The notes beneath the pieces are model-generated. The model did no database searches. It had not been told where the DNA came from and worked only from the letters and a program-made list of their open reading frames with translations. 64,000 bases of DNA, from the NCBI GenBank assembly GCA_021733985.1, contig JAIPJT010000006.1:1-64000 (forward strand), in the 5' to 3' direction. Position 1 is the stretch's first letter. Each line of letters opens with the position of its first letter. Source of the DNA: Victivallales bacterium. GTDB lineage: Bacteria; Verrucomicrobiota; Lentisphaeria; Victivallales; GWF2-38-69. Positions 10,320 to 38,851 of this stretch are shown here, in pieces. The position numbers were made by a program, and so were the translations under genes.

Positions 10320-10465
10320 TTATAAAATATCATAAAATGAAATACAATTTTTTTTATTATTTTTTGTTAAAACTACTTGAATGTGATAGTCCGCAAACTA
10401 AGTTTCAGGATGTTATACGGATTTTTAAGTATCAGATTAATAAGAACATCCGAAAAGGCAAATTA

Positions 10466-12588: not shown

Positions 12589-12610
12589 ATAAAAACAGGA
12601 GAGTAAAACA

Positions 12611-12970: not shown

Positions 12971-12974
12971 AGAA

Positions 12975-13661: not shown

Positions 13662-13664
13662 TTT

Positions 13665-14597: not shown

Positions 14598-14710
14598 ATA
14601 AAATAGTTGATTAAATATTACTCATAGCTTTAAATTAAGCACGATATAAAAAAATTTAAAACCGCAGATAGCAGGTTTAATTATTTTGAAAAATTTGTCC
14701 GGAGGATATT

Positions 14711-15187
14711 ATGGCTGAAAATACAGACAAAAACAAACTTGACCCTATGTTGAAATATAAGGTCGCTGAAAAACCCGGGGGAGAAACTGTTAAGGCATGT
14801 TATTCCTGCGGAGTATGTACAGCAGCATGCCCGGTTAATGAAGTTAACGAAGATTTTAATCCCCGTAAAATGATAAGAATGATCCTTCTGGGAGATAAGG
14901 AAAACTTATTTTCCTCAGATCTTATGTGGTACTGCATGCTTTGTGAACGATGCTATGCAAACTGTCCTCAAAAAGTAAACTTTGCACATATAGCCAGGGC
15001 ATTAAGAGACATTGCTGTTGAAGAAGGTTTTGTAGACAGTGAATTCTCGGTTATTATTAAAAAAATAGAAAGCCGCGTCGGTGACCTGAGAAAAGATGCT
15101 ATTGCAGAAGTACTTAAAAACAAGAAGAATATAGAAAATATTGATATAAATAAAACATTAAAAGAATTAATAAACTCAGATGAGTAA
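14711..15187 (+). CDS. hdrC: HdrC-like iron-sulfur subunit
   Basis: Cytosolic electron-transfer subunit with two [4Fe-4S] motifs, CYSCGVCTAACPV and CMLCERCYANCPQ, spaced as in HdrC. 158 residues, normal length. The C-terminal ~40 residues are charged and helical. In classical Hdr complexes HdrC links HdrA to the catalytic HdrB. No HdrB with CCG motifs is encoded anywhere in this window, so here HdrC may pass electrons to MetVF instead (inference). Strong ribosome binding site GGAGGATATT before the ATG. It starts after a 113-base gap from metF that shows no clear terminator, and is followed after 3 bases by the HdrA-NuoE fusion. Confidence 0.9.
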   Translation: MAENTDKNKLDPMLKYKVAEKPGGETVKACYSCGVCTAACPVNEVNEDFNPRKMIRMILLGDKENLFSSDLMWYCMLCERCYANCPQKVNFAHIARALRDIAVEEGFVDSEFSVIIKKIESRVGDLRKDAIAEVLKNKKNIENIDINKTLKELINSDE

Positions 15188-15190
15188 CTT

Positions 15191-16066
15191 ATGAGTGTAA
15201 CAAAAGAAAAAAATAAAAATGGTTCTGTAGTAGTTGTAGGCGGAGGAATAGCCGGTGTTCAGCTCTCAAGCGACCTCGCCGACTCGGGTTACTATGTCTA
15301 CCTTGTGGAAAAGACACCCTCAATAGGCGGTATTATGTCACAGCTCGACAAAACTTTTCCAACCAACGACTGCTCCATGTGTATTTTAGCTCCGAAACTC
15401 GTAGGTGTAGGAAGAAATCCCAATATAGAACTTCTGACTCACTCTGAAGTAAAGGAGTTTGCCGGAAAACCCGGCAATTTCAAAGTTAAAGTTGTCAAAC
15501 ACGCAAGAAGTGTCGATCCGGACAAATGCACCGGTTGCGGTCTCTGTACCGAAAACTGTCCTATTCAGTATAAAATTCAGCCTAAAGAAGAAGCCTTGCA
15601 GATTCCGGAAATAGAAGACAGAGAGGAAATAGATAAGATTATTAACAGCTATAAAGATCTGGATTCACCTGTTGTGCAGATTCTGCTTGATATTAATGAA
15701 AAATATAAATATCTGCCTGAACCTGTACTGAAATATATTTCATACAAAATGGATATTCCCTTTTCTGAGATTTATAGAATGGTTACTTTCTACAAGGCGT
15801 TTTCACTTGAGCCTAAAGGAAAATATCACTTTAAAGTATGTATGGGTACTGCATGCCACGTCAGAGGGGCCGAAGCTGTGCTTGAAAGTATAAAACATGG
15901 AATTAAGGATACTAAAAAGGATCTGTTTTCTGTAGAAACAGTTAACTGTCTGGGTGTCTGCGCATCCGGTCCAGTAATAGTTGTGAATGAAACATATTAT
16001 GGAAATATGAATTCTAAAAACACAGCTGAATTAGTTAAGAAACTTATTGACAAAGAAAACGAGTAA
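15191..16066 (+). CDS. HdrA N-terminal half fused to NuoE-like subunit
   Basis: 291 residues made of two parts. Residues ~10-140 are the FAD-binding opening of HdrA: VVVVGGGIAGVQLSSDL, the cluster segment TFPTNDCSMCILAPKLVG (~55) and a ferredoxin motif DPDKCTGCGLCTENCPIQ (~113). At that point HdrA stops. Residues ~150-290 are a NuoE/HylA-type thioredoxin-fold [2Fe-2S] domain with CMGTACHVRGAE (~216) and VNCLGVCASGP (~251). The missing remainder of this HdrA is found in the gene at 17984, whose HdrA part begins at the matching position. The two chains must therefore assemble to make one HdrA, which would place NuoE directly against the flavin site. Confidence 0.9.
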   Translation: MSVTKEKNKNGSVVVVGGGIAGVQLSSDLADSGYYVYLVEKTPSIGGIMSQLDKTFPTNDCSMCILAPKLVGVGRNPNIELLTHSEVKEFAGKPGNFKVKVVKHARSVDPDKCTGCGLCTENCPIQYKIQPKEEALQIPEIEDREEIDKIINSYKDLDSPVVQILLDINEKYKYLPEPVLKYISYKMDIPFSEIYRMVTFYKAFSLEPKGKYHFKVCMGTACHVRGAEAVLESIKHGIKDTKKDLFSVETVNCLGVCASGPVIVVNETYYGNMNSKNTAELVKKLIDKENE

Positions 16067-16086
16067 GTTCAGTCAGGAGATATTTA

Positions 16087-17982
16087 ATGAGCGAGTTAAA
16101 ACTAAATTCAGTCATAGCCGGTAAAAAGGAGCTGGAGGAAATTTGCAACAAGTTAATCAGCAAAAATAAAAATATTAAAAAAACTGTTTCAATATGCTGC
16201 GGTACCGGCTGTATAGCCAATAACAGTCTTGAAATAGTTAATAAATTACAACAACTCCTTAAAAGCAGAAAAATAGATAATGCCGAAATTAAAATATTAA
16301 AATCCGGCTGTCCGGGTTATTGCGAACAGGGGCCACTTGTAAAAATTATGCCTGATGACATTCTCTATACCAAGGTAACTCCTGAAGATGCAGAAGAGAT
16401 TATCAATGAAACAATAATAAATAATAAAACTGTTGAAAGACTGCTTTTTAAAGAAAACGGCGATAAAACAATACAAAAGGAAAATGACATACCTTTTTAC
16501 AAAAAGCAGAACAGGATCCTGCTTGGCTTGCAAAGCAAAATAGATTATACAAGCCTTGAAGATTATATTTCAATAAACGGTTATCAGGCCGCTGCTAAAG
16601 CTTTCTCAATGAAACCTGACAATATAATCGGTGAAATAGTTGATTCAGGCCTAAGAGGAAGAGGCGGCGCGGGCTTCCCTACAGGAAGAAAATGGGAACA
16701 GGTAAAGAAGCAGGATAATACACCTAAATATATAGTCTGCAACGCCGATGAAGGTGACCCCGGTGCTTTTATGGATAGGGCAGTCCTCGAAGGGAATCCC
16801 CATCTGATCATAGAAGGCCTTATAATAGGCGGATATGCCATGGGTGCGGAAAAAGGTTATGTTTATGTCAGAGATGAATACCCACTGGCAGTAAAAAATC
16901 TTAAGAAAGCAACAGATGCGGCCAGAAAAGTTGGACTTCTCGGCAAAAACATTCTCGGTTCAGGCTTCAACTTCGATATCGTCCTGTACAGAGGCGCCGG
17001 TGCATTTGTCTGCGGCGAATCATCTGCTCTTATAAAAAGCATTATGGGTATGGCAGGAGAGCCTAAGCAGAAAATTCCACGAAATTCAGTAAAAGGTTTA
17101 TGGAATAAGCCTACTAACATTAATAATGTGGAAACATGGGCAAATGTACCAAATATTATCAATTACGGTTCATCATGGTTTGCCGAATACGGAAACAAAA
17201 GCTCAAAAGGAACTAAAATCTTTGCCCTTGTAGGAAAAATCAACAATACAGGTCTCGTCGAGGTCCCTATGGGTATAACCTTACGTGAAGTTATCAATGA
17301 TATCGGGGGCGGCATACCTGAAGGCAAAAAATTCAAAGCTGTTCAGACAGGAGGCCCGTCAGGAGGCTGCCTACCCGATGAAAAACTTGACCTCCCTATC
17401 GACTTTGACAGTTTGGATGAAGCAGGTGCAATTATGGGGTCCGGCGGTATGATCGTTATGGACGAAAATACCTGTATGGTTGATGTTGCTAAATATTTTA
17501 CAGACTTCAATCTGAATGAATCATGCGGTAAATGCACATCCTGTCGAGAAGGACTAAGCAGACTCTCTGAAATTTTAGAACGAATTATAGGGGGGAAAGG
17601 AAAAGAAGATGATCTCCTGTTAATGGAGGAACTCTCTGAATATATCATAAGCACTTCACTTTGCGGATTAGGGCAGACCGCTCCGAATCCTGTTCTTTCA
17701 ACTTTAAGATATTTTAAAGACGAATATGAAGCTCATATTAAAGAAAAACGCTGTCCCGCAAAAGTTTGCAAAAGTTTAATATCTTTCAGGATTAATCCTG
17801 ACAAGTGCATAGGCTGCGGGAAATGTGCCAAATCCTGCCCCACTAATGCTATTTCGGGTGAGAAAAAACATACCCATGTAATTGACCCTTATAAATGTGT
17901 CAAATGCGGTCGTTGTCTTCTTGAGTGTCCCGGAAAAATACAGGCAGTTGAAAAAGTAGATACATTTGCAGAGGCTAAGTAA
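16087..17982 (+). CDS. NuoF-like NADH-oxidising subunit with extra ferredoxin domains
   Basis: 631 residues. Domains in order: N-terminal thioredoxin-like [2Fe-2S] domain (~35-115; SICCGTGCIANN, SGCPGYCEQGP); the NADH/FMN domain of NuoF (GLRGRGGAGFPTGRKW ~188, NADEGDPGAFMDR ~219, GAGAFVCGESSAL); SLBB; the [4Fe-4S] site SCGKCTSCREG (~477); and two C-terminal [4Fe-4S] motifs CIGCGKCAKSCPTNAI and CVKCGRCLLECPG. This layout is that of the beta subunit of NAD-dependent bifurcating hydrogenases and formate dehydrogenases. It oxidises or reduces NAD(H) in the cytosol. It sits between the NuoE- and NuoG-like parts. CAGGAG precedes the ATG. No hydrogenase catalytic subunit is nearby. Confidence 0.93.
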   Translation: MSELKLNSVIAGKKELEEICNKLISKNKNIKKTVSICCGTGCIANNSLEIVNKLQQLLKSRKIDNAEIKILKSGCPGYCEQGPLVKIMPDDILYTKVTPEDAEEIINETIINNKTVERLLFKENGDKTIQKENDIPFYKKQNRILLGLQSKIDYTSLEDYISINGYQAAAKAFSMKPDNIIGEIVDSGLRGRGGAGFPTGRKWEQVKKQDNTPKYIVCNADEGDPGAFMDRAVLEGNPHLIIEGLIIGGYAMGAEKGYVYVRDEYPLAVKNLKKATDAARKVGLLGKNILGSGFNFDIVLYRGAGAFVCGESSALIKSIMGMAGEPKQKIPRNSVKGLWNKPTNINNVETWANVPNIINYGSSWFAEYGNKSSKGTKIFALVGKINNTGLVEVPMGITLREVINDIGGGIPEGKKFKAVQTGGPSGGCLPDEKLDLPIDFDSLDEAGAIMGSGGMIVMDENTCMVDVAKYFTDFNLNESCGKCTSCREGLSRLSEILERIIGGKGKEDDLLLMEELSEYIISTSLCGLGQTAPNPVLSTLRYFKDEYEAHIKEKRCPAKVCKSLISFRINPDKCIGCGKCAKSCPTNAISGEKKHTHVIDPYKCVKCGRCLLECPGKIQAVEKVDTFAEAK

Positions 17983-17983
17983 T

Positions 17984-20900
17984 ATGGATACAATAAAACT
18001 AACTATCAATAGCCGTGAATATAAAGCAGAAAAAGGGATGACAATCCTTGAGGTATGCAAAGAAAACAATATTTATATTCCGACACTATGCCACAGCAGT
18101 ATTCTTGAAAATTACGGAGCATGCCGGTTATGTGTTGTAGAACTTGATAATCGCGGCAGAAAGAAACTCGTAACTTCATGCACACATCCCGCATGGGACG
18201 GACTTACTGTAAATACTGACAGTGAAAGAGTATTAAAGTCAAGAAAGATGACAATTGAGCTTCTACTGTCAAGATGCCCTCAAGAAGAGAAACTTCAGGA
18301 ACTTGCAAAGTTCTATAGTGTAAAAGAAACGAGATTTATAGATAAAGACGAAAATTGTATTTTGTGCGGGCTTTGCGTCAGAATGTGTCAGGGACTTAAC
18401 ACAAATGCAATTTCGTTTATCAACAGGGGCCATGAAAGAGAAGTAAATACTCCGTATAGTACGGAAAGTGATGTCTGCCTCACCTGCGGAGCATGCGCCT
18501 CAATCTGCCCGATGTCCCATTTCAGTGAAGAGAAATTTGGAAATAACAGCGGATTAACTCCGGTACCTAAAAAGTCCCGTTATGAAGCAGGCCTTGTAAA
18601 AGAAAGTAACATTGCCGTGCCCTTTACCCAGGCGGTTCCGAATATGCCCGTTATTGACAGAGAAAACTGTATACATTTTCATAACGGCGGCTGCGGAATT
18701 TGCCAGGAAGTCTGCGAAGCTGAGGCAATAGACTATGAACAGGAAGATGAAACAGTCGATATAGAAGCCGGAGCTGTAGTAATTACCGGCGGCGGTGACG
18801 TTTTCGATCCCGATTTATTATACAAATACGGTTATACAAGATATAAGGATGTAATTACTTCGCTGGAGTTCGAAAGGATACTTTCCGCATCAGGGCCTTT
18901 CGGCGGCGAAGTTGTAAGATTATCCGACAATAAACATCCTGACAAGATCGCATTTATGCAGTGTATCGGATCAAGGGATGAAAGCAGTAAACACGGTTAC
19001 TGCTCAAGCGTCTGCTGTATGTATGCGATAAAAGAAGCCATTATAGCTAAAGAACATATGGGGAATAACGTAGAAATTACGATTTATTTCATGGATATCA
19101 GATGCTACGGTAAAGATTTTGAAAAATATTACGAGAGAGCACAAAATAAATACGGCATACGTTTCATAAGAACCAGAGCTTATGAACTTGAGGAAAAGAA
19201 TAATCAGTTATCTGTGAACTACTGCAGCCCTGACGGTACCAGACAGATTGAGAACCAAGATATGGTAGTTCTATCTGTCGGCTTTAATCCTTCATCTTCC
19301 TCCAGACAGGCAGCGGCAAAACTTAAATTGGCACACAATAAAAACGGTTTCATTAAATCACCTCTTTATGAACCGACAAAAACAACACATGAAGGTGTTT
19401 TTACATGCGGCGTTATCAACGGCCCGAAAGATATACCTGAAACGGTGGCAGAAGCCTCAGCTGTAAGCGCAAATATAAATGAATTTCTGTCTTCAGCCAG
19501 AGGTACTCTTACAAAAACAAAAGAATTTCCTGAAGAGCTGGATATATTTAATCTTGTACCGAGGATAGGTGTTTTTGTATGCCACTGCGGTATTAATATA
19601 GGATCAGTTGTGGATGTTAAAAAAGTTGCCGAACACGCAAAAACTCTCCCCAATGTGATTTATGCTGAAGATAATCAGTACACCTGCAGCCAGGATTCAC
19701 AGGAACGAATTAAAGAACTTGTTCAGGAATACAACTTGAACAGAGTAGTCGTTGCAAGCTGTTCTCCGAGGACACATGAACCCCTGTTCCAGGAAACTAT
19801 AAGAGAGGCCGGATTAAATAAATATCTGTTTGAAATGGCAAATATAAGAGACCAGTGCAGCTGGGTACATCCCAATGAACCGGAAAAAGCCACCGAGAAA
19901 TCTATTGATCTTCTCACAATGGCTGTAAATAAGGCACGTTTGCTTACACCGCTTAAGGAAAGTGAAATAGATGTACTTAAATCATCAATGATCATAGGCG
20001 GCGGCGTATCCGGTATGAATGCGGCTCTTAATCTTGCTGCACAGGATTTTGACGTTGTTCTGGTTGAGAAAGAAAACAGCCTTGGCGGTTTTGCTAAAAA
20101 TATTAAATATAACAGCTTCGGAGATGAAATAAATCCTTACCTCGAAGAACTAATAAAAAAAGTAGAAAACAACAGTAAAATTACTGTCTTTAAAAACTGC
20201 GACATTCAGCATGTTGACGGTTATATCGGAAACTATAATACAAAATTGCTTGACAGAACAAACAATACCGTCAATGAAGTAACTCACGGAACTGTGATTA
20301 TCACTGTAGGAGCCGACGAATATAAACCTAAAGAATTCCTCTACGGAAAAAATAAAAATGTTAAAACTCAGACAGAGTTTGAAGATATTATTCACAAAGA
20401 TGAGGCAGCAGTAAAAAAACTCGATAATATAGCAATGATACAGTGTGTTGGATCAAGGAATGATGAACATCCATACTGTTCAAGAGTATGCTGCCAGGAA
20501 GCAGTTAAAAACGCAATAAAAATTAAAGAGATTAGTCCTGATACCAATGTGTATGTTTTCTATCGCGATATCAGAACTTACGGCCTCCAGGAAGAGAACT
20601 ACAGAAAGGCCAGAAAACTCGGTGTAGTTTTTATTCGTTTCGAAAAAGATAATGAACCTGAAGCTTCAAGTCTGGATAACGGAAATATCGCAGTCAGTTT
20701 CCGTGAAGAACTCATAGGTAAAGAAATGGAACTTGTTGTTGATAAACTTATACTGAGTGCTGGAATAGTTGCAAATGCTAACAACCACAAACTCGCACAG
20801 CATTTCAAACTGCCTCTTAACGATGACGGTTTCTTCCTTGAAGCACATGTTAAGTTAAGGCCTGTTGATTTTGCTACGGAAGGTGTTTATCTTGCGGGTA

Positions 20901-21244
20901 CATGCCATGCTCCTAAAGATATGAATGAAAGCATTTCACAGTCTCTTGCCGCTGCAGGCAGAGCACTTACCGTTATAACAAAGGACAAACTTACAACTAA
21001 TGCAGTTATCTCCTCTATTGATGAAAATCTATGTGCAGGATGTAAAGCATGTGTTGAAGTCTGCGCCTACAAGGCTATAGACTTTGATGAAGAAAAGAAA
21101 ATCTCAAAAGTCAACGAAGCATTGTGTAAAGGATGCGGCGCCTGTGCTGCCTCATGCAGAAGCGGTGCGGCGGATCTAAAAGGATTTACAAATGAACAGA
21201 TTTTCTCCGCAATTGATTCATTGGAAACACTATTAAATGAGTAA
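17984..21244 (+). CDS. NuoG N-terminus fused to HdrA C-part and a second full HdrA
   Basis: 1086 residues from the ATG that follows the nuoF stop by 1 base (the track's earlier TTG is less likely). Order: plant-type [2Fe-2S] domain (CHSSILENYGACRLC, ~30-70); two [4Fe-4S] motifs of the NuoG/HydA N-terminus (CILCGLCVRMCQG ~124, CLTCGACASICPM ~164); then, from VPFTQAVPNMPVID (~211), the C-terminal part of HdrA with CGICQEVC, FMQCIGSRDES (~323) and GVFTCGVINGPKDIPE; then a second HdrA from VFVCHCGINIGSVVDV (~529), Rossmann IIGGGVSGMNAAL (~670), MIQCVGSRND (~817) and a 2[4Fe-4S] tail (CAGCKACVEVC, CKGCGACAASC). The second HdrA lacks the DCSMC-type cluster segment next to its flavin. The HdrA part completes the half in the gene at 15191. 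Confidence 0.9.
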   Translation: MDTIKLTINSREYKAEKGMTILEVCKENNIYIPTLCHSSILENYGACRLCVVELDNRGRKKLVTSCTHPAWDGLTVNTDSERVLKSRKMTIELLLSRCPQEEKLQELAKFYSVKETRFIDKDENCILCGLCVRMCQGLNTNAISFINRGHEREVNTPYSTESDVCLTCGACASICPMSHFSEEKFGNNSGLTPVPKKSRYEAGLVKESNIAVPFTQAVPNMPVIDRENCIHFHNGGCGICQEVCEAEAIDYEQEDETVDIEAGAVVITGGGDVFDPDLLYKYGYTRYKDVITSLEFERILSASGPFGGEVVRLSDNKHPDKIAFMQCIGSRDESSKHGYCSSVCCMYAIKEAIIAKEHMGNNVEITIYFMDIRCYGKDFEKYYERAQNKYGIRFIRTRAYELEEKNNQLSVNYCSPDGTRQIENQDMVVLSVGFNPSSSSRQAAAKLKLAHNKNGFIKSPLYEPTKTTHEGVFTCGVINGPKDIPETVAEASAVSANINEFLSSARGTLTKTKEFPEELDIFNLVPRIGVFVCHCGINIGSVVDVKKVAEHAKTLPNVIYAEDNQYTCSQDSQERIKELVQEYNLNRVVVASCSPRTHEPLFQETIREAGLNKYLFEMANIRDQCSWVHPNEPEKATEKSIDLLTMAVNKARLLTPLKESEIDVLKSSMIIGGGVSGMNAALNLAAQDFDVVLVEKENSLGGFAKNIKYNSFGDEINPYLEELIKKVENNSKITVFKNCDIQHVDGYIGNYNTKLLDRTNNTVNEVTHGTVIITVGADEYKPKEFLYGKNKNVKTQTEFEDIIHKDEAAVKKLDNIAMIQCVGSRNDEHPYCSRVCCQEAVKNAIKIKEISPDTNVYVFYRDIRTYGLQEENYRKARKLGVVFIRFEKDNEPEASSLDNGNIAVSFREELIGKEMELVVDKLILSAGIVANANNHKLAQHFKLPLNDDGFFLEAHVKLRPVDFATEGVYLAGTCHAPKDMNESISQSLAAAGRALTVITKDKLTTNAVISSIDENLCAGCKACVEVCAYKAIDFDEEKKISKVNEALCKGCGACAASCRSGAADLKGFTNEQIFSAIDSLETLLNE

Positions 21245-21270
21245 ATTATATAAAACCGAGAAGAGATAAT

Positions 21271-21690
21271 ATGGAAAATTTTGAACCTAAAATAATGACT
21301 TTTCTCTGCAACTGGTGTTCATACGCCGGTGCAGACCTTGCAGGTGTCTCAAGATTGCAGTATCCGGCAAACACAAGAGTTATTCGCGTCCCGTGTTCAG
21401 GAAGAGTTGACCCGCTGTTCATACTCAAATGCCTGCAGGACGGTTATGACGGAGTCCTTGTATCCGGCTGCCACCCGGGTGACTGCCATTACCTTTCCGG
21501 AAACTATTTTGCACGCAGAAAATTTGCTGTTCTCAAAGCATCACTTGAATTTATAGGTGTTGAATCTGAACGAGTTCATTTTTCCTGGGTATCCGCAGGT
21601 GAAGGGGAAAAGTTTTCACAGGTAATATCCAAAGTTATTGAAAGTGTAAAAAAAATCGGCCCTGCGCAAAAGCTGGTAAAAAAGCGATAA
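21271..21690 (+). CDS. flxD: MvhD/FlxD-like [2Fe-2S] subunit
   Basis: 139 residues, canonical MvhD family: FLCNWCSYAGADLAGVSRLQ, IRVPCSGRVDPLFILK and SGCHPGDCHYLSGNYFARR are all present, so the [2Fe-2S] site appears intact. In hydrogenase-Hdr and Flx-Hdr complexes this subunit passes electrons to the HdrA flavin. It follows the double HdrA gene by 26 bases with AGAAGAGAT upstream of the ATG, and precedes genes like flxC, flxB and flxA. I therefore read it as FlxD of a FlxABCD-type NADH module. The symbol is by context; mvhD would be equally fair. Confidence 0.88.
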   Translation: MENFEPKIMTFLCNWCSYAGADLAGVSRLQYPANTRVIRVPCSGRVDPLFILKCLQDGYDGVLVSGCHPGDCHYLSGNYFARRKFAVLKASLEFIGVESERVHFSWVSAGEGEKFSQVISKVIESVKKIGPAQKLVKKR

Positions 21691-21715
21691 CAATTGAAAA
21701 AAGAGAGAAAGTCCT

Positions 21716-22669
21716 GTGTCTAATTTACAAGAAAAAGTAAAAAAAATTTTTTCCGATGAAAAACTTGATTTACTTATCGGATTTGAAAAAGGTACTTTGC
21801 CATTACGTGCTGCACCTTCTTTTGTTAGAAAATCTGAAGATTTGGATAAGCTAATATTCGACATTACATGTCAGAATAACCTTGCTAAGCACCTGTTAAA
21901 TGAGATAAAACGTAACCCTGACCAAAAAATCGGAATAATAGCCAAGGGCTGTGATGCCAGAGCTATTATACATCTCATTTCTGAAAAGCAGCTGGAACGT
22001 AAAAAAATTATAATTATCGGTGTTCCCTGCTGCGGAGTAATATCACCGTTCAAATTAAAAAACGTTCTGAATGGCAGAGAAGTCACTGACTGCACTATTA
22101 ATAACGAGACAGTAATTTGTAAAGGAAAAGATTACGAAAAGGAAATTTCCCGCACTGATATTCTTTCCGGCTATTGTCTTTCATGCCAATACCCTAACGC
22201 ACCGGAATACGATTATTTTATCGGGGAACAGACTAAACCGGCCCCTCCTGAAAAACAGTTTGAGAAAGTTGACGAACTTGAGAAAATGACTCCCGACGAA
22301 AGATGGGAATATTTCAAAAAAGAATACAGTAAATGTATACGCTGTAACGCATGCAGAAATGCCTGCCCTATGTGCTTCTGTGATGAATGCTTTATTGACA
22401 GAAATAAACCGAGATGGGTAGGTAAAGGTAACGATATTAGCGACATAATGATTTACCATATTATGCGAGCTATCCATCTTGCAGGACGCTGTACATCATG
22501 CGGTGCCTGCTCCAGAGCATGTCCCATGGGAATCGATATTGAAGCCCTGAACAAGAGAGTTACCAAGGAGATAAAAGAGAGGTTCGGGTTCACTGCCGGT
22601 CTGGACTGCGAAAAAAATCCTGCTCTTGCAGATTATAAAACCGATGATAATGACGAGTTTATTATGTAA
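21716..22669 (+). CDS. flxC: FlxC-like dicluster iron-sulfur protein
   Basis: 317 residues, GTG start (AAGAGAGAAAG upstream). The N-terminal half (residues ~1-160) resembles the FrhB/coenzyme-F420-hydrogenase beta-like fold with IGIIAKGCDARAII and IIGVPCCGVISPFKLK. The C-terminal half has two [4Fe-4S] motifs, CIRCNACRNACPMCFC and CTSCGACSRACPMGID. Proteins of this layout occur as FlxC in the flavin oxidoreductase gene set that accompanies HdrABC in sulfate reducers and fermenters. Its role is electron transfer between the NADH-binding FlxA/FlxB side and HdrA. The extra CPMCFCDEC cysteines may bind a further site. A 156-base gap to the next gene contains only shadow ORFs. Confidence 0.82.
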   Translation: MSNLQEKVKKIFSDEKLDLLIGFEKGTLPLRAAPSFVRKSEDLDKLIFDITCQNNLAKHLLNEIKRNPDQKIGIIAKGCDARAIIHLISEKQLERKKIIIIGVPCCGVISPFKLKNVLNGREVTDCTINNETVICKGKDYEKEISRTDILSGYCLSCQYPNAPEYDYFIGEQTKPAPPEKQFEKVDELEKMTPDERWEYFKKEYSKCIRCNACRNACPMCFCDECFIDRNKPRWVGKGNDISDIMIYHIMRAIHLAGRCTSCGACSRACPMGIDIEALNKRVTKEIKERFGFTAGLDCEKNPALADYKTDDNDEFIM

Positions 22670-22825
22670 ATTTTATCATAATTCAGCGGATACCCTGTCA
22701 GCTCTTTTTCACGAACGGGCAGAATTCCGAAAACATGAATTAAACTGGGCTATTTTCGCTGAAAAAAATAATAATGAATACAACTGTGTTTATTTTAAAG
22801 AAAACAGCAACAAAGGTTTCTATTA

Positions 22826-23848
22826 ATGAGCAAGTACAAACTTAAAAAAAATAATATTGAAAACTTTTTAAATGAGCTGAGGGAAGAATATTCTGTATTT
22901 GCACCAATCGAATCAGATGGAACTGTGGCTTTCCAAAAGCTTGATGATGTAAAGCTTCCGGATATTTCTCTTAAAAGAACCGATAGACCTCCGAAAGAAA
23001 TATTTTTTCCGCATACTGAAGTTATTCTCTCGTTTGATGATAAAAACGCGGAATCCGGTGAGTACCGGGGCAAGCCTATAGCAGTATTCGGATTAAAATC
23101 CTGTGATTCTAAAAGTCTTCATATCCTTGATAATGTTTTTCTTGATTCAAGTTATACAGACACTTACTGGTATAAAAGACGTAGTAATTCTCTAATTTTC
23201 ACTATCGGCTGTAATAATCCCCTTCCGTCCTGTTTCTGCAACTGGTTTAAATGCGGTCCGTTTGATTCAACTCATTCGGACGTGGCAGTTACCGATATAG
23301 AGGATTCTTTCATTCTTGAACCGGTATCAGAACAGGGAACAGAATATCTTGCAAAGTCCAAATACCTTGAAAAGGCAGAGGAAAAGGATATAAAAAAAGC
23401 TGAAGCATTAAAGGAAAAAGCCGAATCAGATATGCCCCAGCCGCCTGACCTGAAAAAGCTAAAAGAAATACTTGACAATAATCAGAATGATAAACTTTGG
23501 GAAGAACTTGCTGCCAAATGCCTCGGTTGCGGTGTCTGTGCGTTCTCATGCCCAACATGCTACTGTTTTGATATTCAGGACGACAGCAGGCGCAATAAGG
23601 GTAAAAGAGTACGAATCTGGGATACCTGTCAGGAACCGCTTTTTACAAAAGAAGGTTCCGGACATAATCCCCGCCCTTCTCAGAAAGGCCGGACCTTGCA
23701 GCGTTTTATGCATAAATTAAGTTATATGATTGAAACTCAAAATAATTTCGGATGCGTTGGCTGCGGCAGGTGCGTTACCTTATGCCCTGTCAATATCGAT
23801 ATTCGTGATTTCATAAAAAAAGTTCTCCAAGTGAAAGGAGATAAATAA
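22826..23848 (+). CDS. flxB: FlxB-like iron-sulfur protein (AsrA/HydB family)
   Basis: 340 residues. N-terminal two-thirds show the AsrA-type pattern VFGLKSCDSKSLHILDNVF and FTIGCNNPLPSCFCNWF. A charged, probably helical linker occupies ~185-230. The C-terminus carries two [4Fe-4S] motifs, CLGCGVCAFSCPTCYCFD (~233) and CVGCGRCVTLCPVNID (~318). The family pairs with a FAD/NAD(P)H-binding partner (AsrB, HydG, FlxA); here that partner is the next gene, 1 base after this stop. The pair should oxidise or reduce NAD(P)H and exchange electrons with FlxC/FlxD and HdrA. Start by position and similarity to relatives. Confidence 0.87.
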   Translation: MSKYKLKKNNIENFLNELREEYSVFAPIESDGTVAFQKLDDVKLPDISLKRTDRPPKEIFFPHTEVILSFDDKNAESGEYRGKPIAVFGLKSCDSKSLHILDNVFLDSSYTDTYWYKRRSNSLIFTIGCNNPLPSCFCNWFKCGPFDSTHSDVAVTDIEDSFILEPVSEQGTEYLAKSKYLEKAEEKDIKKAEALKEKAESDMPQPPDLKKLKEILDNNQNDKLWEELAAKCLGCGVCAFSCPTCYCFDIQDDSRRNKGKRVRIWDTCQEPLFTKEGSGHNPRPSQKGRTLQRFMHKLSYMIETQNNFGCVGCGRCVTLCPVNIDIRDFIKKVLQVKGDK

Positions 23849-23849
23849 T

Positions 23850-24689
23850 ATGCAAGCCCATAATTCCTATATACCGATACCTGTAAGAGTGAAAAAAATA
23901 TATATTGAATCGGAAGATAGACTTTTAAGGACAATTGACCTTGAATTCATTAATCCGGATCAGGCTTTTGATTACAAACCCGGACAGTTCTGTCAGCTTT
24001 CTCTACTCGGCAAAGGTGAAGCTCCGTTCGGAATAGCCTCATCTCCAACTGAGAAAGGTTTTCTCCGTTTTACCGTAAACAAAATTGGCCTGGTTACTAC
24101 GGGCCTCCACATGCTTAAGGAGGGCGACGAACTGGGCATCCGCGGCCCCTTAGGTAATTATTACCCTGTAGAAGAGTTTAAAAATAAAAATGTTGTCCTT
24201 GTCGGCGGCGGGTTCGGTGTCACAACGCTCCGTTCTCTTGCTGTATATCTAAGAGATCCCGCCCATAGGGCAGATTACGGAGATATTACTTTTATCTATG
24301 GTGCCCGTAATCCCGGAGCCATGATTTACCGTAATGAGTTTGAAAAATGGGAAAATGAAGAAGATATAGATATGAATCTGACGATTGATAAACCTGTTAA
24401 AGGCTGGAATAAAAAGGTTGGATTTGTGCCCAATGTGACCAAAGAAGTAGCTCCGGGTTCAGATAATTCAGTAATAATGGTCTGCGGTCCTCCAATAATG
24501 ATAAAATTTACCCTCCCGGTACTTGCAGAACTTGGCTTTTCAAAGGATAGTATTTATACAAGTCTTGAGAGACGGATGAAATGCGGTATAGGTAAGTGCG
24601 GCAGATGCAACATCGGCTCAAAATATGTCTGCGTAGATGGTCCTGTTTTTTCATATAGGGAACTGGAAAAACTTAATTATAAATTTTAA
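23850..24689 (+). CDS. flxA: FlxA-like NAD(P)H:FAD oxidoreductase subunit
   Basis: 279 residues of the ferredoxin-NADP reductase/DHODB fold. The FAD motif is PFGIASSPTEKGFLRFTV, the nucleotide-binding loop VVLVGGGFGVTTLRSLA and the NAD-domain motif MVCGPPIMIKFT. The C-terminal [2Fe-2S] ligands are CGIGKCGRCNIGSKYVC. This matches FlxA, AsrB and the gamma subunit of sulfhydrogenases. It provides an NAD(P)H site additional to the NuoF-like protein. GAAAGGAGATAAATAAT before the ATG gives a strong ribosome binding site overlapping the flxB end. The next gene is 67 bases away and has its own strong site. Confidence 0.9.
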   Translation: MQAHNSYIPIPVRVKKIYIESEDRLLRTIDLEFINPDQAFDYKPGQFCQLSLLGKGEAPFGIASSPTEKGFLRFTVNKIGLVTTGLHMLKEGDELGIRGPLGNYYPVEEFKNKNVVLVGGGFGVTTLRSLAVYLRDPAHRADYGDITFIYGARNPGAMIYRNEFEKWENEEDIDMNLTIDKPVKGWNKKVGFVPNVTKEVAPGSDNSVIMVCGPPIMIKFTLPVLAELGFSKDSIYTSLERRMKCGIGKCGRCNIGSKYVCVDGPVFSYRELEKLNYKF

Positions 24690-24756
24690 AAATCATATTA
24701 TATCGGATTTTAAAATAAAAAAATAATAACAAATTCAATTAAAGGAGAAAGTCAGC

Positions 24757-25386
24757 ATGGCAAGAAACGAAGAACTTTTTAATGCAGTCAGCGGAGGGAA
24801 AATGGACCTCGTTCCCGAATTAGTTCAGAAAGAACTTGACGCAGGTGCAAAACCGGATGAAATTCTGCAGGACTCAATGATTGCTGCAATGAGAGAGATC
24901 GGTGAACGTTTTGAAAATGAAGAAGCTTATGTTCCAGAAATGCTTTTAGCTGCACGCGCTATGCAGGGCGGCCTGTCTGTCCTGGAACCTGCTTTGGCTG
25001 CTTCCGGCCATGAAGCCCTGGGCAAAGTAGCGATCGGTACGGTGAAAGGTGATTTGCATGACATTGGAAAAAATCTGGTTTCTACAATGCTTTCCGGAGC
25101 CGGTTACTCTGTTGAAGACCTGGGAATTAACTGTGAAGTAGACAAATTTGCGGAAGCAGCTAATAAAGGTGCTAAAGTAATTCTTTGCAGCGCACTTCTT
25201 ACAACAACTATGCCTTACATGAAAGAGGTTATAGATCATCTCAAAGAAAACAACAAAGATGTTAAAGTTATTGTAGGCGGCGCTCCTGTAAGCCAGGAAT
25301 TTGCTGATTCAATTAATGCAGACGGCTACGGTGAAGATGCTAATATGGCAGTGAAAATTGTAGATAAACTTTACAAAGCCGGCTAA
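24757..25386 (+). CDS. Corrinoid (B12-binding) methyl-carrier protein
   Basis: Small cytosolic methyl carrier of the MtaC/MtbC/MttC/MtgC type: 209 residues with an N-terminal four-helix cap (ending PEMLLAARAMQGGL) and a C-terminal Rossmann B12 domain. The base-off cobalamin motif DxHxxG is present in GTVKGDLHDIGKNLVSTML, and the later SxL...GG signature appears as SALLTTTMPYMK and VIVGGAPVS. It receives a methyl group from a substrate:corrinoid methyltransferase, or gives it to THF. The THF-side enzyme follows 78 bases downstream. The substrate-side MttB-like enzyme is not in the window. AAAGGAGAAAG upstream is a near-ideal ribosome binding site, implying high expression. Confidence 0.93.
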   Translation: MARNEELFNAVSGGKMDLVPELVQKELDAGAKPDEILQDSMIAAMREIGERFENEEAYVPEMLLAARAMQGGLSVLEPALAASGHEALGKVAIGTVKGDLHDIGKNLVSTMLSGAGYSVEDLGINCEVDKFAEAANKGAKVILCSALLTTTMPYMKEVIDHLKENNKDVKVIVGGAPVSQEFADSINADGYGEDANMAVKIVDKLYKAG

Positions 25387-25464
25387 TAAATTTGAAAACA
25401 AAATATCGAGTATTAAGGTTATTTCATCTTATTTAATCTTGAATCAAATGGGGGAGTTTTATCA

Positions 25465-26331
25465 ATGCCTATTGAAGGATTAAAGATAATTGGAGAATCA
25501 ATAAACGATTCTGTCCCGTCTACAAATAAACTTTATAAAGAAAACAACATTGAAGGCATTAAAGACTTGGCAAAACTCCAGGAGGAAAAAGGAGCAGCTT
25601 ATATTGATGTAAATGTCGGAAGCAGGACTCCTGAATTTATGGCTCAAATGGTAAAAGAAGTTCAAAGTGTAACTTCAAAGCCACTGTCCATTGATTCTCC
25701 TGATTTTAACACGGTGAAAGCCGGTCTTGAAGCCTACGACCTCGAAAAAGCAGGAGGCAAAATTCCCGTTTTGAATTCTATTTCTCCTTTAAGGACAGAA
25801 ATGTTCGACCTCCTCAAAACTTATAATTTCATTCCTATTCTAATGGTTTCTGAAAGAAACATCAATGGAAAATCCAGCCCGAATCATACTGTAGAAGCAA
25901 CTTTTGAAACAGCAAAATATATGCATGCAGAACTCAAAAAATATGCTGACCTGCCTAATGACCAGATTATTTTTGATGTTGGTATTGCACCTATTGCCAG
26001 TGATATGGAGGGGCTAACAAAGAGAACTGTAGAATCAATAAAAAGAATAAATCAGGCGCCGAAATTTAAAGGGGTTCATATGTCTCTGGGCCTTAGTAAT
26101 TTTACAGTTATGCTGCCTTCTAAATGCAAAGACGGCACTCCTGTCAAAAGTTCACTCGAAAGCGCATTTCTGACTTTAACAGTCAAAAACGGTCTTGATA
26201 TGGTCATTGGCTCTGTTAAAAGAAAATACAGGATACTTGACGACAGTCATCCTGCCATGCAGTGTCTGAATGATGTACTTCAGAAAGACGGATTTGAAAT
26301 CCTAATGAGGGTTCAGTCGTTCTACTCCTGA
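25465..26331 (+). CDS. Methyl-THF:corrinoid-protein methyltransferase (MtgA/MtvA-like)
   Basis: 288 residues with a pterin-binding TIM barrel like MtgA, MtvA and the folate domain of MetH/AcsE. Seen: IIGESINDSV at the N-terminus (in place of IGERIN), AAYIDVNVGSRTPEFM, KPLSIDSPDFN, PVLNSISPLR, IIFDVGIAPIASD and GVHMSLGLSNFTVMLP. It should move methyl groups between the neighbouring corrinoid protein and tetrahydrofolate, connecting it to MetVF. GGGGGAG precedes the ATG. A good terminator at 26346-26383 ends the transcript, so the BCCT gene probably has its own promoter. Direction (methyl oxidation or synthesis) is not decided by sequence. Confidence 0.9.
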   Translation: MPIEGLKIIGESINDSVPSTNKLYKENNIEGIKDLAKLQEEKGAAYIDVNVGSRTPEFMAQMVKEVQSVTSKPLSIDSPDFNTVKAGLEAYDLEKAGGKIPVLNSISPLRTEMFDLLKTYNFIPILMVSERNINGKSSPNHTVEATFETAKYMHAELKKYADLPNDQIIFDVGIAPIASDMEGLTKRTVESIKRINQAPKFKGVHMSLGLSNFTVMLPSKCKDGTPVKSSLESAFLTLTVKNGLDMVIGSVKRKYRILDDSHPAMQCLNDVLQKDGFEILMRVQSFYS

Positions 26332-33323: not shown

Positions 33324-35513
33324 TCAGGCTTTGCCTGTCATGTACAACCAGGCTTTGTCTTTTCTGTTTCCATACGAAATATTATGGAATCCTGCTTTTT
33401 CAAAAAAACTTTTATATTCTTCTATTGAATTTATCTCCATATTTTTACTCATTTTATACATCTCTTCTGAGAAGGTTTCAAGACCTTCAAAGTTATATGC
33501 TTCATTGATCATAGCAAATGCAGAATTCTTTTTCAGCACTCTTTTTATTTCAGCCAACCCATTAATTTTATCAGGCCAAAAATAAATAGTCTCAACACCC
33601 ACGGCAAAGTCAAAATAATTGTCTTCAAAAGGAAGATTATCTACAGATGCATGATAAATCTCCAGCCTTTTATCCGACAATAGAGACTTATTATTTTCTT
33701 TTGTCAATTCCAGCATATCCGGTGAATAATCTATTCCGGAAAATTCAGCTTCAGTTAGATCAGCATTAAGCAGGCTAATAGCAGTACCTGCGCCACATCC
33801 TACATCCAGCACTCTAACATTTTCCTTCAGCTTCAATTCAGTTAGTATTTTCCTTGCAGCCCACTTTACCAAACCTGCATGAGAATCAAACATCTTATTC
33901 GCTATTTTTCTACCATCAATGCCTGCAGGCCGGGATGCCTGTTTTATAAGATAATCTCTATCGGTTTGTTTATTAATTTCATTCTTATTTAATATCTTAT
34001 CGATTGTTCTCTTTACAATAGATTCCCCGGGCTGCAAAAGATATAACTCTTCAAACATCTCATCTGCAATCTTTTCGTAATTAAGGTTAATACCGTGTCT
34101 GTTTTTCAGTATAAAATCAATGTACCTTACAGACCTGTCTATAAGCTTGCTGTTGCTTGGGTATACTGACGTCATCAGGTTACCTTCATAATATCCAAGA
34201 CGCCCCATCATAATTGTGGAAGAGGTATTAAGTAGCAGCTTCAAAATTAAATGTTCGAATAATGGCGTAAAACCATTAACATTAAATTCAGCCACGCAAC
34301 CCCTCAAAGAAAATTTTATTTTATTGTCTTTCCTGAAAATTTTATAATAATGAAACGGTTTTGCGTAACTGCTTCTTAAATTGATAAGCTCCCGGCTGAA
34401 ATTGAAACCTAAAAGCCTTTCCCTGCTTGTTTCTTCACTCCAGTTCAGTGTTCTGGGCTTACGGCCAAGGAGTTTATTCCAGGCTTCTGCAGGCTCGCCC
34501 GCATTTCTGAGCACAATATAAAACCACGACGGTCTAAAATCATTATCCAGCTGATTTTCGAAAGGTGCCAGATTAAAAGTCGGGGCTCTTTCCGTTGTAT
34601 CGGTCAATACAGTAACCCCGTAAAATTCATCAATATCGTAAAAAACATATTCTCCGTTTTTATAAATTTCAGTTTCGTTCTTAATAAAATCGATAAGAGG
34701 AGTCATATCTGTCTTGTCAAGGACTTCAGAAAAGTTCTCCAGTTCGTCTTTTATATTGTATCCCAACAGTGGTAACCCTATACCAAGCATCAGTACGGTT
34801 GTAGCCTGCATTCTGGTACTTCCGGTCAACGCCATCTGTCCAGTATACAAGCCTAAGGATTTAACTTTTTTATTATAAATAACATGATCTGTAATCCGCC
34901 CTTTCAGAGAATCATTAGTATTACAGTGTATAAACCAGGGTTTAACCGAACTTTCAGCCGCATACTCTGCGGTAGCAAGGACAAACGGTGATTCTCCGCT
35001 GGCGCTGGCAGCTATAAGTAGATCACCGTCTTTAAAACCGGCAAGTTTAAGCTGTTTGACACCATACTCCTTAAAATCCTCGAATCCCTCAATAGATTTT
35101 ATCATGGCATTGTCTCCCCCGCCGAGAAAACCTGTAACCATCCCTTTTTTTTCCGGAAAACAATAATTCCATAAAAATTCCAGCGCTACAGCCAGCCTGC
35201 CGCTAGCACCGCATCCTGAAATAATAATTTTATTCCCGGACTCCAAAACCTGTTCTATGTCGGCTTTAAGTTTTTCCAGCCCGGATACATATTCCAGCAT
35301 TCTTCTTACAGCTTTTATATCTACATTTTTTAATAAATTTACAGCCTCAGGCAATTTTTTTTTTGCGAGAACGGACAGATTAATAGTATCAGGATTGGGC
35401 TGCTCAGTCTGCAGGGGGTTATTCCTGAACTTTTTTTTCTGCTGTTGAAAAACTTTAATTCTATCAGTAATCTGGGTTTTCAAATTTTTAGTTTTTTCCA
35501 TTTTGTTTTCCAT
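33324..35513 (-). CDS. SIS-domain (MurQ/GKRP-like) protein fused to SAM methyltransferase
   Basis: 729 residues in two units. Residues ~30-500 look like a double SIS sugar-phosphate-binding protein: IIISGCGASGRLAVALEF and LLIAASASGESPFVLATAEY are the first SIS motifs, as in MurNAc-6-phosphate etherase MurQ and glucokinase regulatory protein, and RNAGEPAEAWNKLLGRKP lies in the second. Residues ~565-729 are a class I methyltransferase with motif I RVLDVGCGAGTAISLL, GIDYSPDMLELT, and a post-motif region DNYFDFAVGVETIYFWP. The reading frame is continuous. MurQ itself is ~300 residues. The fusion suggests methylation linked to a phosphosugar, but substrate and partner are unknown. A GT4/GH130 operon lies upstream on the same strand across a repeat-containing gap. 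Confidence 0.8.
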   Translation of the reverse strand: MENKMEKTKNLKTQITDRIKVFQQQKKKFRNNPLQTEQPNPDTINLSVLAKKKLPEAVNLLKNVDIKAVRRMLEYVSGLEKLKADIEQVLESGNKIIISGCGASGRLAVALEFLWNYCFPEKKGMVTGFLGGGDNAMIKSIEGFEDFKEYGVKQLKLAGFKDGDLLIAASASGESPFVLATAEYAAESSVKPWFIHCNTNDSLKGRITDHVIYNKKVKSLGLYTGQMALTGSTRMQATTVLMLGIGLPLLGYNIKDELENFSEVLDKTDMTPLIDFIKNETEIYKNGEYVFYDIDEFYGVTVLTDTTERAPTFNLAPFENQLDNDFRPSWFYIVLRNAGEPAEAWNKLLGRKPRTLNWSEETSRERLLGFNFSRELINLRSSYAKPFHYYKIFRKDNKIKFSLRGCVAEFNVNGFTPLFEHLILKLLLNTSSTIMMGRLGYYEGNLMTSVYPSNSKLIDRSVRYIDFILKNRHGINLNYEKIADEMFEELYLLQPGESIVKRTIDKILNKNEINKQTDRDYLIKQASRPAGIDGRKIANKMFDSHAGLVKWAARKILTELKLKENVRVLDVGCGAGTAISLLNADLTEAEFSGIDYSPDMLELTKENNKSLLSDKRLEIYHASVDNLPFEDNYFDFAVGVETIYFWPDKINGLAEIKRVLKKNSAFAMINEAYNFEGLETFSEEMYKMSKNMEINSIEEYKSFFEKAGFHNISYGNRKDKAWLYMTGKA

Positions 35514-35924: not shown

Positions 35925-36863
35925 TCATACTTTACCTTCAAGAGTAAATTCAATAAGTTCACTCATGGAAACAGTAGCAACACAGATACAGGTATCGGCA
36001 GCACCGTAATATATTTTGACCCTGCCGTCATCTTCAATAATTCCACCGCAGGCAAAAATCACATTCCCTACATCTCCGATCCGCTCATAATTTTTCCTCG
36101 GCGAAAGCACCGAACTTGCCGGTCTGGCTATAACTTTAGACGGATCTTCAAGATCGAGAAGTACAGTGCCGGCGCGATAAATCGGCCCTGCAGAAGTCAT
36201 TTTCACTCCATGGTATATCTCAAGCCAGCCATGCTCTGTCTTAATAGGCGGCACAGAAGCCCCGATTCTATAACTGTCCCAGTAACCGGCTCTGGGTGAA
36301 ATAACTCTATTTGATTTCCCCCAGTCTACAAGGTTTTTAGAATATGAAACCCAGATAGAACCGATCCCCTCTCCTATGGGCCTGTCAAACCTGACATATT
36401 CACCATTAATTTTTTCAGGAAACAATAAACCGTCTTTGTTGTTTGGTTCTGATACAACAGCTATACGTTCATAGTTTACAAAATCCTCGGTTTTTGCCAA
36501 AGCAATCCTGGCACCGTATTCAGAGTAGGCGGTATAAAGCATTATATATTCACCTTCGACTTCTGTTATCCTCGGATCTTCTACTCCTCTCGCTTCATAC
36601 TTACCGAATACACCGGATTTAGCGGGAAGCATTACAGGCTTTTCATCTACCTTGAAGTTAAAACCATCTTTACTTCTGGCCAACGCAAAATAGGAATACC
36701 CCTGTAATCCCTCTACTCTTAATACGAGATAATAATCATTTCCCCTTTTAACAGGAGCACCGTTGAATACCGTATTACATCTGAAAGGAATATCGTCTAA
36801 AGAAAGAACCGGATTACCCTCATACCTATGCAACAAATCTTTTCTTGAACTGCTTATCTTCAT
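35925..36863 (-). CDS. GH130 family glycoside phosphorylase/hydrolase, copy 3
   Basis: Five-bladed beta-propeller enzyme, 312 residues. GH130 features: RYEGNPVLSLDDIPF at the N-terminus, the catalytic-region motif ARGVEDPRITEVEG, LLFPEKINGEYVRFDRP and SPRAGYWDSYRIG, with GDVGNVIFACGGIIEDDGR near the end. GH130 enzymes act on beta-mannosides, either as phosphorylases releasing mannose-1-phosphate or as beta-1,2-mannosidases. The basic residues that separate these activities cannot be assigned here with confidence. It starts 1 base after the stop of the preceding GH130, so translation is coupled. No signal peptide, hence cytosolic. Confidence 0.9.
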   Translation of the reverse strand: MKISSSRKDLLHRYEGNPVLSLDDIPFRCNTVFNGAPVKRGNDYYLVLRVEGLQGYSYFALARSKDGFNFKVDEKPVMLPAKSGVFGKYEARGVEDPRITEVEGEYIMLYTAYSEYGARIALAKTEDFVNYERIAVVSEPNNKDGLLFPEKINGEYVRFDRPIGEGIGSIWVSYSKNLVDWGKSNRVISPRAGYWDSYRIGASVPPIKTEHGWLEIYHGVKMTSAGPIYRAGTVLLDLEDPSKVIARPASSVLSPRKNYERIGDVGNVIFACGGIIEDDGRVKIYYGAADTCICVATVSMSELIEFTLEGKV

Positions 36864-36864
36864 A

Positions 36865-37791
36865 TCAGTAATCCCTTTCGCTTAAAAAACATTCATTTAT
36901 AATTCTTTTCAGTTTTACCGACCCTCTGCAGATACAACTGTTCGCACCTCCGTAATACAGTATAAGGTCGTCTCCTTCAAGAACACCGCCGCCGCAGTAA
37001 ATAATGTTATTGACATCCCCTACCCTTTCATAATACTCTCTTGGTGCCAGTATTGGAATATTGCTTCGTGTTTTTACTATTGACGGATCGTCCGCATCGA
37101 GAACCGCTGCCCCCATTCTGTAAAGCGGCCCTGCTGAAGTTTCTTTAACCCCATAGTACAGCATCAGCCAGTCACAACTGCCATTATTGAACCTGATCGG
37201 AGGCATGGCAGCCCCCAGCCTGCTAGCATCCCAGTAACCTGCCCGGGGAGACATCAAAACTTCACTGCTGCCCCAATATACCAGATCATCAGAATAAGTA
37301 ATCCATATACGCCCGCCTGAAGGCCTGTCAAGCCTTGCGTACCTCCCGTTAATTTTTTCGGGAAACAGAACTCCGGCTTTGGTGTCGGGTTCAGATATTG
37401 ACCCGTGATATACAACACTCTCAAATTTAAGTGTTTCTGCAAGACCAAGCCTGTAGCCTTTTGAATCTTTTTTTGTATAAACAACATAATATTTATTATC
37501 GAGGAAAGTAATCCTGGGATCCATGACACCAATATTAGCTGTATCAGGATCCTTCAGTTCTATAAATACATCTTCTTCAACTTTAAAGTTATAACCGTCT
37601 TCACTCACAGCTTTGTGTATGGAATGGTGCCCGGCGTGATTTTCTATATCTATAAGCAAAATATATAAACCGTTATATTTAACTGCCGCACAATTATAAA
37701 TATCGCCCGCTCCAAAACCAAGTCCTTCCAAAGTGATAATAGGATTTCTTTCATATCTGTGAACTATATCGTTCTGTTTGTTGTTTTTCAT
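36865..37791 (-). CDS. GH130 family glycoside phosphorylase/hydrolase, copy 2
   Basis: 308 residues, homologous to its two neighbours. RYERNPIITLEGLGFGAGDI opens the protein. The conserved Asp is in GVMDPRITFLDN, where the usual Glu before the Asp is Met. VLFPEKINGRYARLDRPSGG, SPRAGYWDASRLGAA and GDVNNIIYCGGGVLEGDD follow. Cytosolic. It is closest to the copy at 35925 (shared RAGYWD, SAGP.YR.G) and more distant from the copy at 37811. Its E-to-M change beside the catalytic Asp could mean altered activity (inference). It follows the first GH130 by 19 bases. Confidence 0.9.
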   Translation of the reverse strand: MKNNKQNDIVHRYERNPIITLEGLGFGAGDIYNCAAVKYNGLYILLIDIENHAGHHSIHKAVSEDGYNFKVEEDVFIELKDPDTANIGVMDPRITFLDNKYYVVYTKKDSKGYRLGLAETLKFESVVYHGSISEPDTKAGVLFPEKINGRYARLDRPSGGRIWITYSDDLVYWGSSEVLMSPRAGYWDASRLGAAMPPIRFNNGSCDWLMLYYGVKETSAGPLYRMGAAVLDADDPSIVKTRSNIPILAPREYYERVGDVNNIIYCGGGVLEGDDLILYYGGANSCICRGSVKLKRIINECFLSERDY

Positions 37792-37810
37792 ATAAATTCA
37801 GTTTTTTTTA

Positions 37811-38851
37811 TTATTTTAAAGTTTTTAAAATCTCATCAACAGTTGAAATTATAAGACAGGAACACGAATCCGAAGCCCCGTAGTATATCCATAACCTGCC
37901 ATTTTCCTCAACCATCCCGTTTGTAAAAAGAACGTTCCCGAAAAAACCGTTTATTTCATAATCGGCTTCCGGCTCAATTAAAGGTTTTTCCGGCCTCTTC
38001 AATATCTTCCATGGCTCATTCAAGTCCAAAAGCATTGCAAAAAGTGTATATCTCTGCCCATCACCTTTACAGTGGTATATACAGAGCCAGCCTTCTGAAG
38101 TTTTTAAAGGTGAACTGCCCCCACCTATTTTCATTGATTCAAATCTGTTATCTCTCGGTTTTGCCACACATTTGTGTCCACCCCAATGCAGTAAATCAGG
38201 TGATTCGGCATACCAGATAGACGGCTTTCCGAAACCGCTGTTGTTAGGCCTGTGCAATGCTGCATATTTTCCATTAACTTTCTCCGGAAAAATAGCAACA
38301 TCTTTGTTTTCAGGGTAAAAAATAACACCTAACCTTTTATGCGTTTTAAAGTCTTCTGTCACTGACAAAGCAGTACTCCAGCTGTTCTCAGAAACAATAG
38401 TATAGTTTATATAATATTTTCCATCAATATAAGTTACCCTTGCATCCTCTATTCCATACTTCTCTTGCTCATTCTGCGGATAGATAAAAGGTTTGTCGTC
38501 AACGGTAAAATTTACACCGTCCTCACTTCTGGCAATTCTGATATGACTTAAACTTGAAAGAAAGTCAATCCCCTTATACACTACACCTCTCGTATCTTTA
38601 AGTTTTACATCAGGGTCAGCTTTATCGAATTCAAGCACTTGCGGTATTCCGTCACCATTTACAAACTTATAAGCAGGCACCCTGATTTTATTTTTCACTT
38701 TCACGCATTCCTCTGCAACCCTGAGAAGAAGTAAAGTTTCATTTCCGAATTTTACCGCTGCAGGATTAAATGCTCCAACAACTTTAAAACCTTCAGCGGA
38801 AGGCTTTACATCTTCCGGCCTAACTACCGGATTTTTAGAATATCTAATCAT
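37811..38851 (-). CDS. GH130 family glycoside phosphorylase/hydrolase, copy 1
   Basis: 346 residues, the longest and most divergent of the three. SKNPVVRPEDVKPS opens it; the catalytic region is YGIEDARVTYIDGKYY (DAR instead of DPR), followed by AIFPEKVNGKYAALHRP, KIGGGSSPLKTSEGWL and FFGNVLFTNGMVEENGR. The pattern EDARV with AALHRP is seen in GH130 groups acting on mannosides other than mannosylglucose; the exact linkage is not deducible. Cytosolic, no signal peptide. It lies 93 bases after the GT4 gene and heads the GH130 trio. Confidence 0.9.
   Translation of the reverse strand: MIRYSKNPVVRPEDVKPSAEGFKVVGAFNPAAVKFGNETLLLLRVAEECVKVKNKIRVPAYKFVNGDGIPQVLEFDKADPDVKLKDTRGVVYKGIDFLSSLSHIRIARSEDGVNFTVDDKPFIYPQNEQEKYGIEDARVTYIDGKYYINYTIVSENSWSTALSVTEDFKTHKRLGVIFYPENKDVAIFPEKVNGKYAALHRPNNSGFGKPSIWYAESPDLLHWGGHKCVAKPRDNRFESMKIGGGSSPLKTSEGWLCIYHCKGDGQRYTLFAMLLDLNEPWKILKRPEKPLIEPEADYEINGFFGNVLFTNGMVEENGRLWIYYGASDSCSCLIISTVDEILKTLK

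Follow-up and report, generated by a model that had tools for sequence, protein, structure and literature searches.

On the minus strand of the stretch of Victivallales DNA analyzed here (64,000 nucleotides, called the window below), a single open reading frame at positions 33324 to 35513 runs from an ATG start through 729 codons without an internal stop. It encodes a protein of 729 amino acids in which a double-SIS half related to MurQ and GKRP is joined to a class I SAM-dependent methyltransferase. The SIS half (residues 1 to 512; 33978 to 35513) consists of a first SIS domain (SIS 1), a second SIS module carrying a DTTER motif, and a C-terminal helical segment of the MurQ type, as delimited by comparison with an unfused protein of 522 amino acids from a sister genome, by Foldseek, and by hidden Markov model (HMM) alignments. 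It is followed by a linker of residues 513 to 518 (33960 to 33977), placed from a low-confidence segment of the structural model, from a codon listing, and from the end of the unfused protein, and then by the methyltransferase half (residues 519 to 729; 33327 to 33959), whose limits come from Pfam, complete free-standing homologs, and motif coordinates. At its 3' end the gene has a terminator-like hairpin and T-run (33325 to 33337, same strand), which was found by pattern scan and is a weak feature, with 3 such sites against 1.8 expected in shuffled sequences.

Pfam searches placed GKRP_SIS_N above its cutoff at residues 86 to 184 (52.9 bits against 27) and SIS_2 above cutoff in the same N-terminal part, the two together spanning residues ~77 to 188, and placed Methyltransf_31, Methyltransf_11, and Methyltransf_25 above cutoff at residues ~563 to 708 (65.2 to 74.7 bits). 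The second SIS module was not detected by Pfam; the double-SIS reading of the N-terminal half follows from the AlphaFold model and from Foldseek matches to GKRP, a two-SIS protein. The model, built with a 46-row alignment, has a mean pLDDT of 92 and a pTM of 0.74, and residues 514 to 517 are the sole segment with a pLDDT below 50. We read this as two units that are predicted to be well folded, with an uncertain mutual orientation. In Foldseek searches against the PDB, the top matches of the SIS half were GKRP (E = 4.7e-13) and then MurQ, and the methyltransferase half matched diverse small-molecule methyltransferases. The initial annotation, made from the DNA alone, had described a continuous 729-codon frame, a double-SIS region of MurQ/GKRP kinship, and a class I methyltransferase. 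All three descriptions held: the first in the open reading frame list, the second through Pfam for SIS 1 and through AlphaFold and Foldseek for the second module, and the third through Pfam and motif I.

The phosphosugar-site motifs of SIS 1, assigned by conservation in the family, lie at 35076 to 35216 and comprise GCGASGR (residues 100 to 106), E112, GGD (132 to 134), and SIEGFED (140 to 146); within them G102, G105, R106, E112, G133, D134, E142, E145, and D146 are each conserved in 84 to 87 of the 87 informative sequences. The second SIS module carries the family signature DTTERAPTF (residues 305 to 313; 34575 to 34601), also recognized by conservation, in which D305, E308, and R309 are invariant (88 of 88 informative sequences) and T306 and T307 nearly so. 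A further conserved stretch, KLLLNTSST...PSNSKLIDR (residues 425 to 460; 34134 to 34241), matches the C-terminal segment of MurQ (4s12) and GKRP as a second HMM stretch. Across ~87 informative sequences, E112, E142, E145, D146, E174, GSTR (231 to 234), and DTTER (305 to 309) are invariant or nearly invariant, and all are kept in the window protein.

In the profile alignment, MurQ matches SIS 1 and the terminal KLxxN...SNxKLxDR segment; between these two lies the second SIS module, as in GKRP. The window protein and MurQ (1NRI, 4LZJ, 4S12) have these two regions and a conserved EG.ED motif in common, whereas MurQ is a homodimer with one SIS per chain of ~300 amino acids and the window's chain of ~510 amino acids has a second SIS module inserted. 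Over the N-terminal half, MurQ models score below their curated NCBIfam cutoffs (TIGR00274, 108.3 against 302 bits; PRK05441, 139.5 against 168 bits). We take the catalytic acid pair of Escherichia coli MurQ to be Glu83 and Glu114. The equivalent of Glu114 in the window protein is E142, kept in 86 of 87 family sequences; the column of Glu83 does not hold Glu in the HMM alignment, and the near-invariant E112 lies two residues away. GKRP (4BB9, 3W0L), the best Foldseek match, likewise has two SIS modules and the C-terminal segment in each chain, at an identity of about 14 to 18%. It is an animal regulator whose inhibition of glucokinase responds to fructose phosphates, whereas in the bacterial family the conserved acidic residues suggest catalysis.

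The closest relative of the SIS half, from the same family, is the 522-amino-acid protein of Lentisphaerae bacterium GWF2_38_69 (G002; loci L005 and L092), which is 57% identical along the whole SIS half and has all of the conserved motifs. This protein lacks a methyltransferase and is encoded in an operon with the order nagA, SIS gene, BadF-type GlcNAc kinase gene (nagK; 302 amino acids), and nagB, whereas the fused gene stands alone. Same-strand neighbors of the wider family of ~510-amino-acid proteins (n = 54) include, as raw counts, 4 GH20 hexosaminidases and 5 glcD-like FAD-linked oxidases; the FAD-linked proteins, of the 2-hydroxyacid/D-lactate dehydrogenase type, score below the cutoffs of named families. 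MurQ converts MurNAc-6P to GlcNAc-6P and D-lactate (PMC5061867), and this chemistry would explain both the amino sugar neighbors and the lactate-type neighbors. The window's own genome (G000) encodes NagA on contigs C6 and C9 and a NagB-type protein on contig C37. It contains three SIS_2 matches in all, with no other MurQ-like gene and no further match to the SIS half. AnmK is absent from this genome and from both sister genomes (G001 and G002). The sole BadF-family match in the window's genome is a frame of ~697 amino acids, unlike the 302-amino-acid kinase of the G002 operon, and no counterpart of that kinase was seen there.

We favor an etherase because of the conserved residues, the neighbors of the relatives, the presence of NagA and NagB, and the lack of another MurQ-like gene. 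Weighing against it are the scores below the MurQ cutoffs, the Glu83 column, and the absence from this genome of AnmK and of a kinase like that of the G002 operon. Our preferred reading of the SIS half is a double-SIS N-acetylmuramate-6-phosphate (MurNAc-6P) etherase, a MurQ-like lyase predicted to act in amino sugar or peptidoglycan recycling, and we infer its etherase chemistry. In the proposed mechanism, MurNAc-6P would bind in the cleft between SIS-1 and SIS-2, the conserved acidic residues would eliminate D-lactate to yield GlcNAc-6P, and GlcNAc-6P could then be converted to fructose-6-P by way of NagA and NagB, encoded elsewhere in the genome. The interpretation that we hold, with moderate confidence, is that of a real lineage-specific fusion between a double-SIS MurNAc-6P etherase and an independent methyltransferase, most likely with no catalytic coupling between them.

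It is conceivable, although unlikely, that the SIS half is instead a GKRP-like phosphosugar sensor or regulator, or a NagS-like GlcNAc-6P dehydratase, with the methyltransferase as a possible output. The two-SIS architecture shared with the regulator GKRP would suit such a role, but the strong conservation of the acidic residues across phyla suggests catalysis. The scores below the MurQ cutoffs are also compatible with it, as is the precedent of Streptomyces NagS, a MurQ-related SIS enzyme that acts on GlcNAc-6P as a dehydratase; NagS orthologs, however, have been reported from Streptomycetaceae only (PMC12680351), and the nagA, nagK, nagB, GH20, and glcD-like dehydrogenase neighbors fit a catabolic, lactate-releasing enzyme.

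Most genomes of the order, and many in the phylum, have homologs of the SIS half, which are encoded, except in the f10 fusions described below, by genes of their own (~505 to 600 amino acids). The stop codon of the SIS protein of GWF2_38_69 falls at the equivalent of residue ~512, at the start of the fusion linker. In a maximum likelihood tree of SIS proteins, the window and GWF2_38_69 proteins form a 100/100 clade nested within unfused proteins, and the fusion, currently known from one genome, is therefore derived. The initial annotation had proposed a search for the same fusion in other genomes; no second SIS-methyltransferase fusion was found among ~390 (388) genomes of the phylum, 198 genomes of the class, and 61 named loci, the last obtained with a six-row alignment after a single-sequence contig scan had given no relatives. 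No adjacent pair of SIS and methyltransferase genes was found either, the two being on different contigs in genomes where both were detected. Long open frames at methyltransferase matches in three genomes (G052, G328, and G042) were considered as fusions and rejected, since close homologs are ~207 to 216 amino acids long; the excess was taken to be stop-free upstream sequence.

An artifact, in which an assembly or sequencing error joined two neighboring genes of this draft genome, is improbable in our judgment, and the sequence itself gives no sign of one. The fusion is known from a single genome, in an assembly of 71 contigs, and the initial annotation had set two findings against a true fusion, namely, homologs consistently encoded as two genes and a frame-joining error. 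The homologs of both halves are indeed always separate genes, but such an error was not shown: no frameshift or missing base is required, and the join is in frame, within a short linker between two complete domains. The codon listing contains no ATG, GTG, or TTG between residues 494 and 540, and a separate methyltransferase would therefore lack an ordinary independent start codon ahead of its conserved N-terminal motif. Codon usage in both halves is within the range found for genes of the window, and a foreign origin was rejected on that basis. The missing start at the boundary and the ordinary, host-like codon usage argue against a chimera, and we infer that both halves are made as one chain. 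The relationships of the two halves are far beyond chance, extending over the full length of the SIS half and reaching 42% identity in the methyltransferase half. The gene fusion is probably real and lineage-specific, and it joins two known kinds of enzyme that are unfused in every relative examined.

The SAM-site motifs of the methyltransferase half are intact, including motif I (VLDVGCGAGT, residues 568 to 577), GIDYSPD (593 to 599), and ASVDNLPFED (622 to 631), and are preceded by the N-terminal motif IKQASRPAG (523 to 531). The NCBIfam methyltransferase subfamilies (UbiE, BioC, ArsM, and others) all scored far below their cutoffs. Free-standing homologs of ~205 to 230 amino acids carry a related form of the IKQASRPAG motif; the best match within the order (G009, locus L025; 210 amino acids) attains the 42% with its own N-terminal motif included. 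Unlike the fused half, these class I enzymes are encoded by separate genes with their own start codons, away from SIS genes, and their neighbors, by names read from translations, are malonate decarboxylase, signal peptidase, lpxK, and other unrelated genes. The methyltransferase half is complete, probably an independently folding enzyme carried on a short flexible linker, and it is most likely functionally independent of the etherase.

The initial annotation had proposed a methylated sugar phosphate or a modified cell wall precursor, which would imply a bifunctional enzyme in which a phosphosugar bound or produced by the SIS half, or else the released lactate, is methylated by the methyltransferase. 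We regard this as a doubtful proposition of low probability. The covalent joining of complete domains is compatible with it, but the linker is disordered in the AlphaFold model and no homologous pair is adjacent or fused elsewhere. Among the structural relatives of the methyltransferase in the PDB, which comprise many small-molecule methyltransferases, are AtmM, a D-glucose O-methyltransferase, and RebM; the gene contexts of its homologs, however, have no shared sugar pathway or evident sugar role. Apart from the fusion itself, no evidence for a methylated phosphosugar was found. That one polypeptide couples cleavage of MurNAc-6P (or a related phosphosugar) to SAM-dependent methylation of either that intermediate or the following one is very improbable, and if true it would constitute a previously undescribed methylation step in cell wall sugar salvage.

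The double-SIS protein has a second C-terminal partner within the same class. In family f10, it is joined to a DUF6259 (glycosidase-like) protein of ~620 amino acids in at least four genomes, giving chains of about 1200 to 1330 amino acids (L080, 1363 to 4974, in G264; L081, 3675 to 7433, in G235; L082, 6011 to 10009, in G155; and L083, 4261 to 7929, in G151). The C-terminal parts are 50 to 56% identical, with partial matches in further loci. The DUF6259 partner is common to several genomes, whereas the methyltransferase fusion occurs in one; the SIS protein has therefore gained C-terminal partners more than once.

Taken alone, the methyltransferase fusion is a one-genome curiosity, and the double-SIS family of MurQ/GKRP type, which spans Lentisphaerae, Verrucomicrobia, Bdellovibrionota, Acidobacteria, and Alphaproteobacteria, is the more useful result. 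Its conserved, catalytic-looking residues and its gene neighbors point to a putative MurNAc-6P etherase activity across these phyla. In the collection of papers searched, none dealt with GKRP-like double-SIS proteins of bacteria. If the activity is real, the regulator GKRP would have a catalytic counterpart in bacteria, and predatory bacteria, among other groups, would have an enzyme for muramic acid salvage. In loci L093 to L152, proteins of ~510 amino acids with the DTTER motif are common in the predatory Bdellovibrionota and also occur in other groups, in some cases next to genes for glcD-like dehydrogenases or GH20; these are possible unannotated MurNAc-6P etherases.

GH130 and GT4 genes lie upstream of the fused gene on the same strand, across a gap of 412 bp. 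This stretch (35925 to 38851, minus strand) holds GH130-like (mannoside phosphorylase) genes, three in tandem, and upstream of them a gene for a GT4 glycosyltransferase; such a row of three paralogs is unusual. The one tested against Pfam (35925 to 36863) scored 211 bits for GH130. The initial annotation had taken this operon as a clue to function; we rejected that use in view of the gap and of the GH130-like protein at 37811 to 38851, which was not found in the sister genomes G001 and G002 in a search run without a positive control. These neighbors appear unrelated to the fused gene. A DinG gene lies downstream in convergent orientation; synteny around DinG was tried and set aside, as in both sister genomes it belongs to a birA-PAP2-DinG arrangement and no gene for either half of the fusion is close to it.

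Two other regions of the window, both on the plus strand, may be mentioned. A long block at 10337 to 26331 contains genes resembling those for heterodisulfide reductase, MetF, corrinoid proteins, and a pterin-binding methyltransferase (the last identified by Pfam), suggesting a Wood-Ljungdahl-type C1 pathway in a Lentisphaerae-type genome. At 3478 to 9550, two adjacent paralogs of ~1000 amino acids have near-identical N-terminal regions (FKxxxYQxLMRxRIINVLLICSNxDAFMLEEDGRINEKIFLEYTSYNLRYPP).
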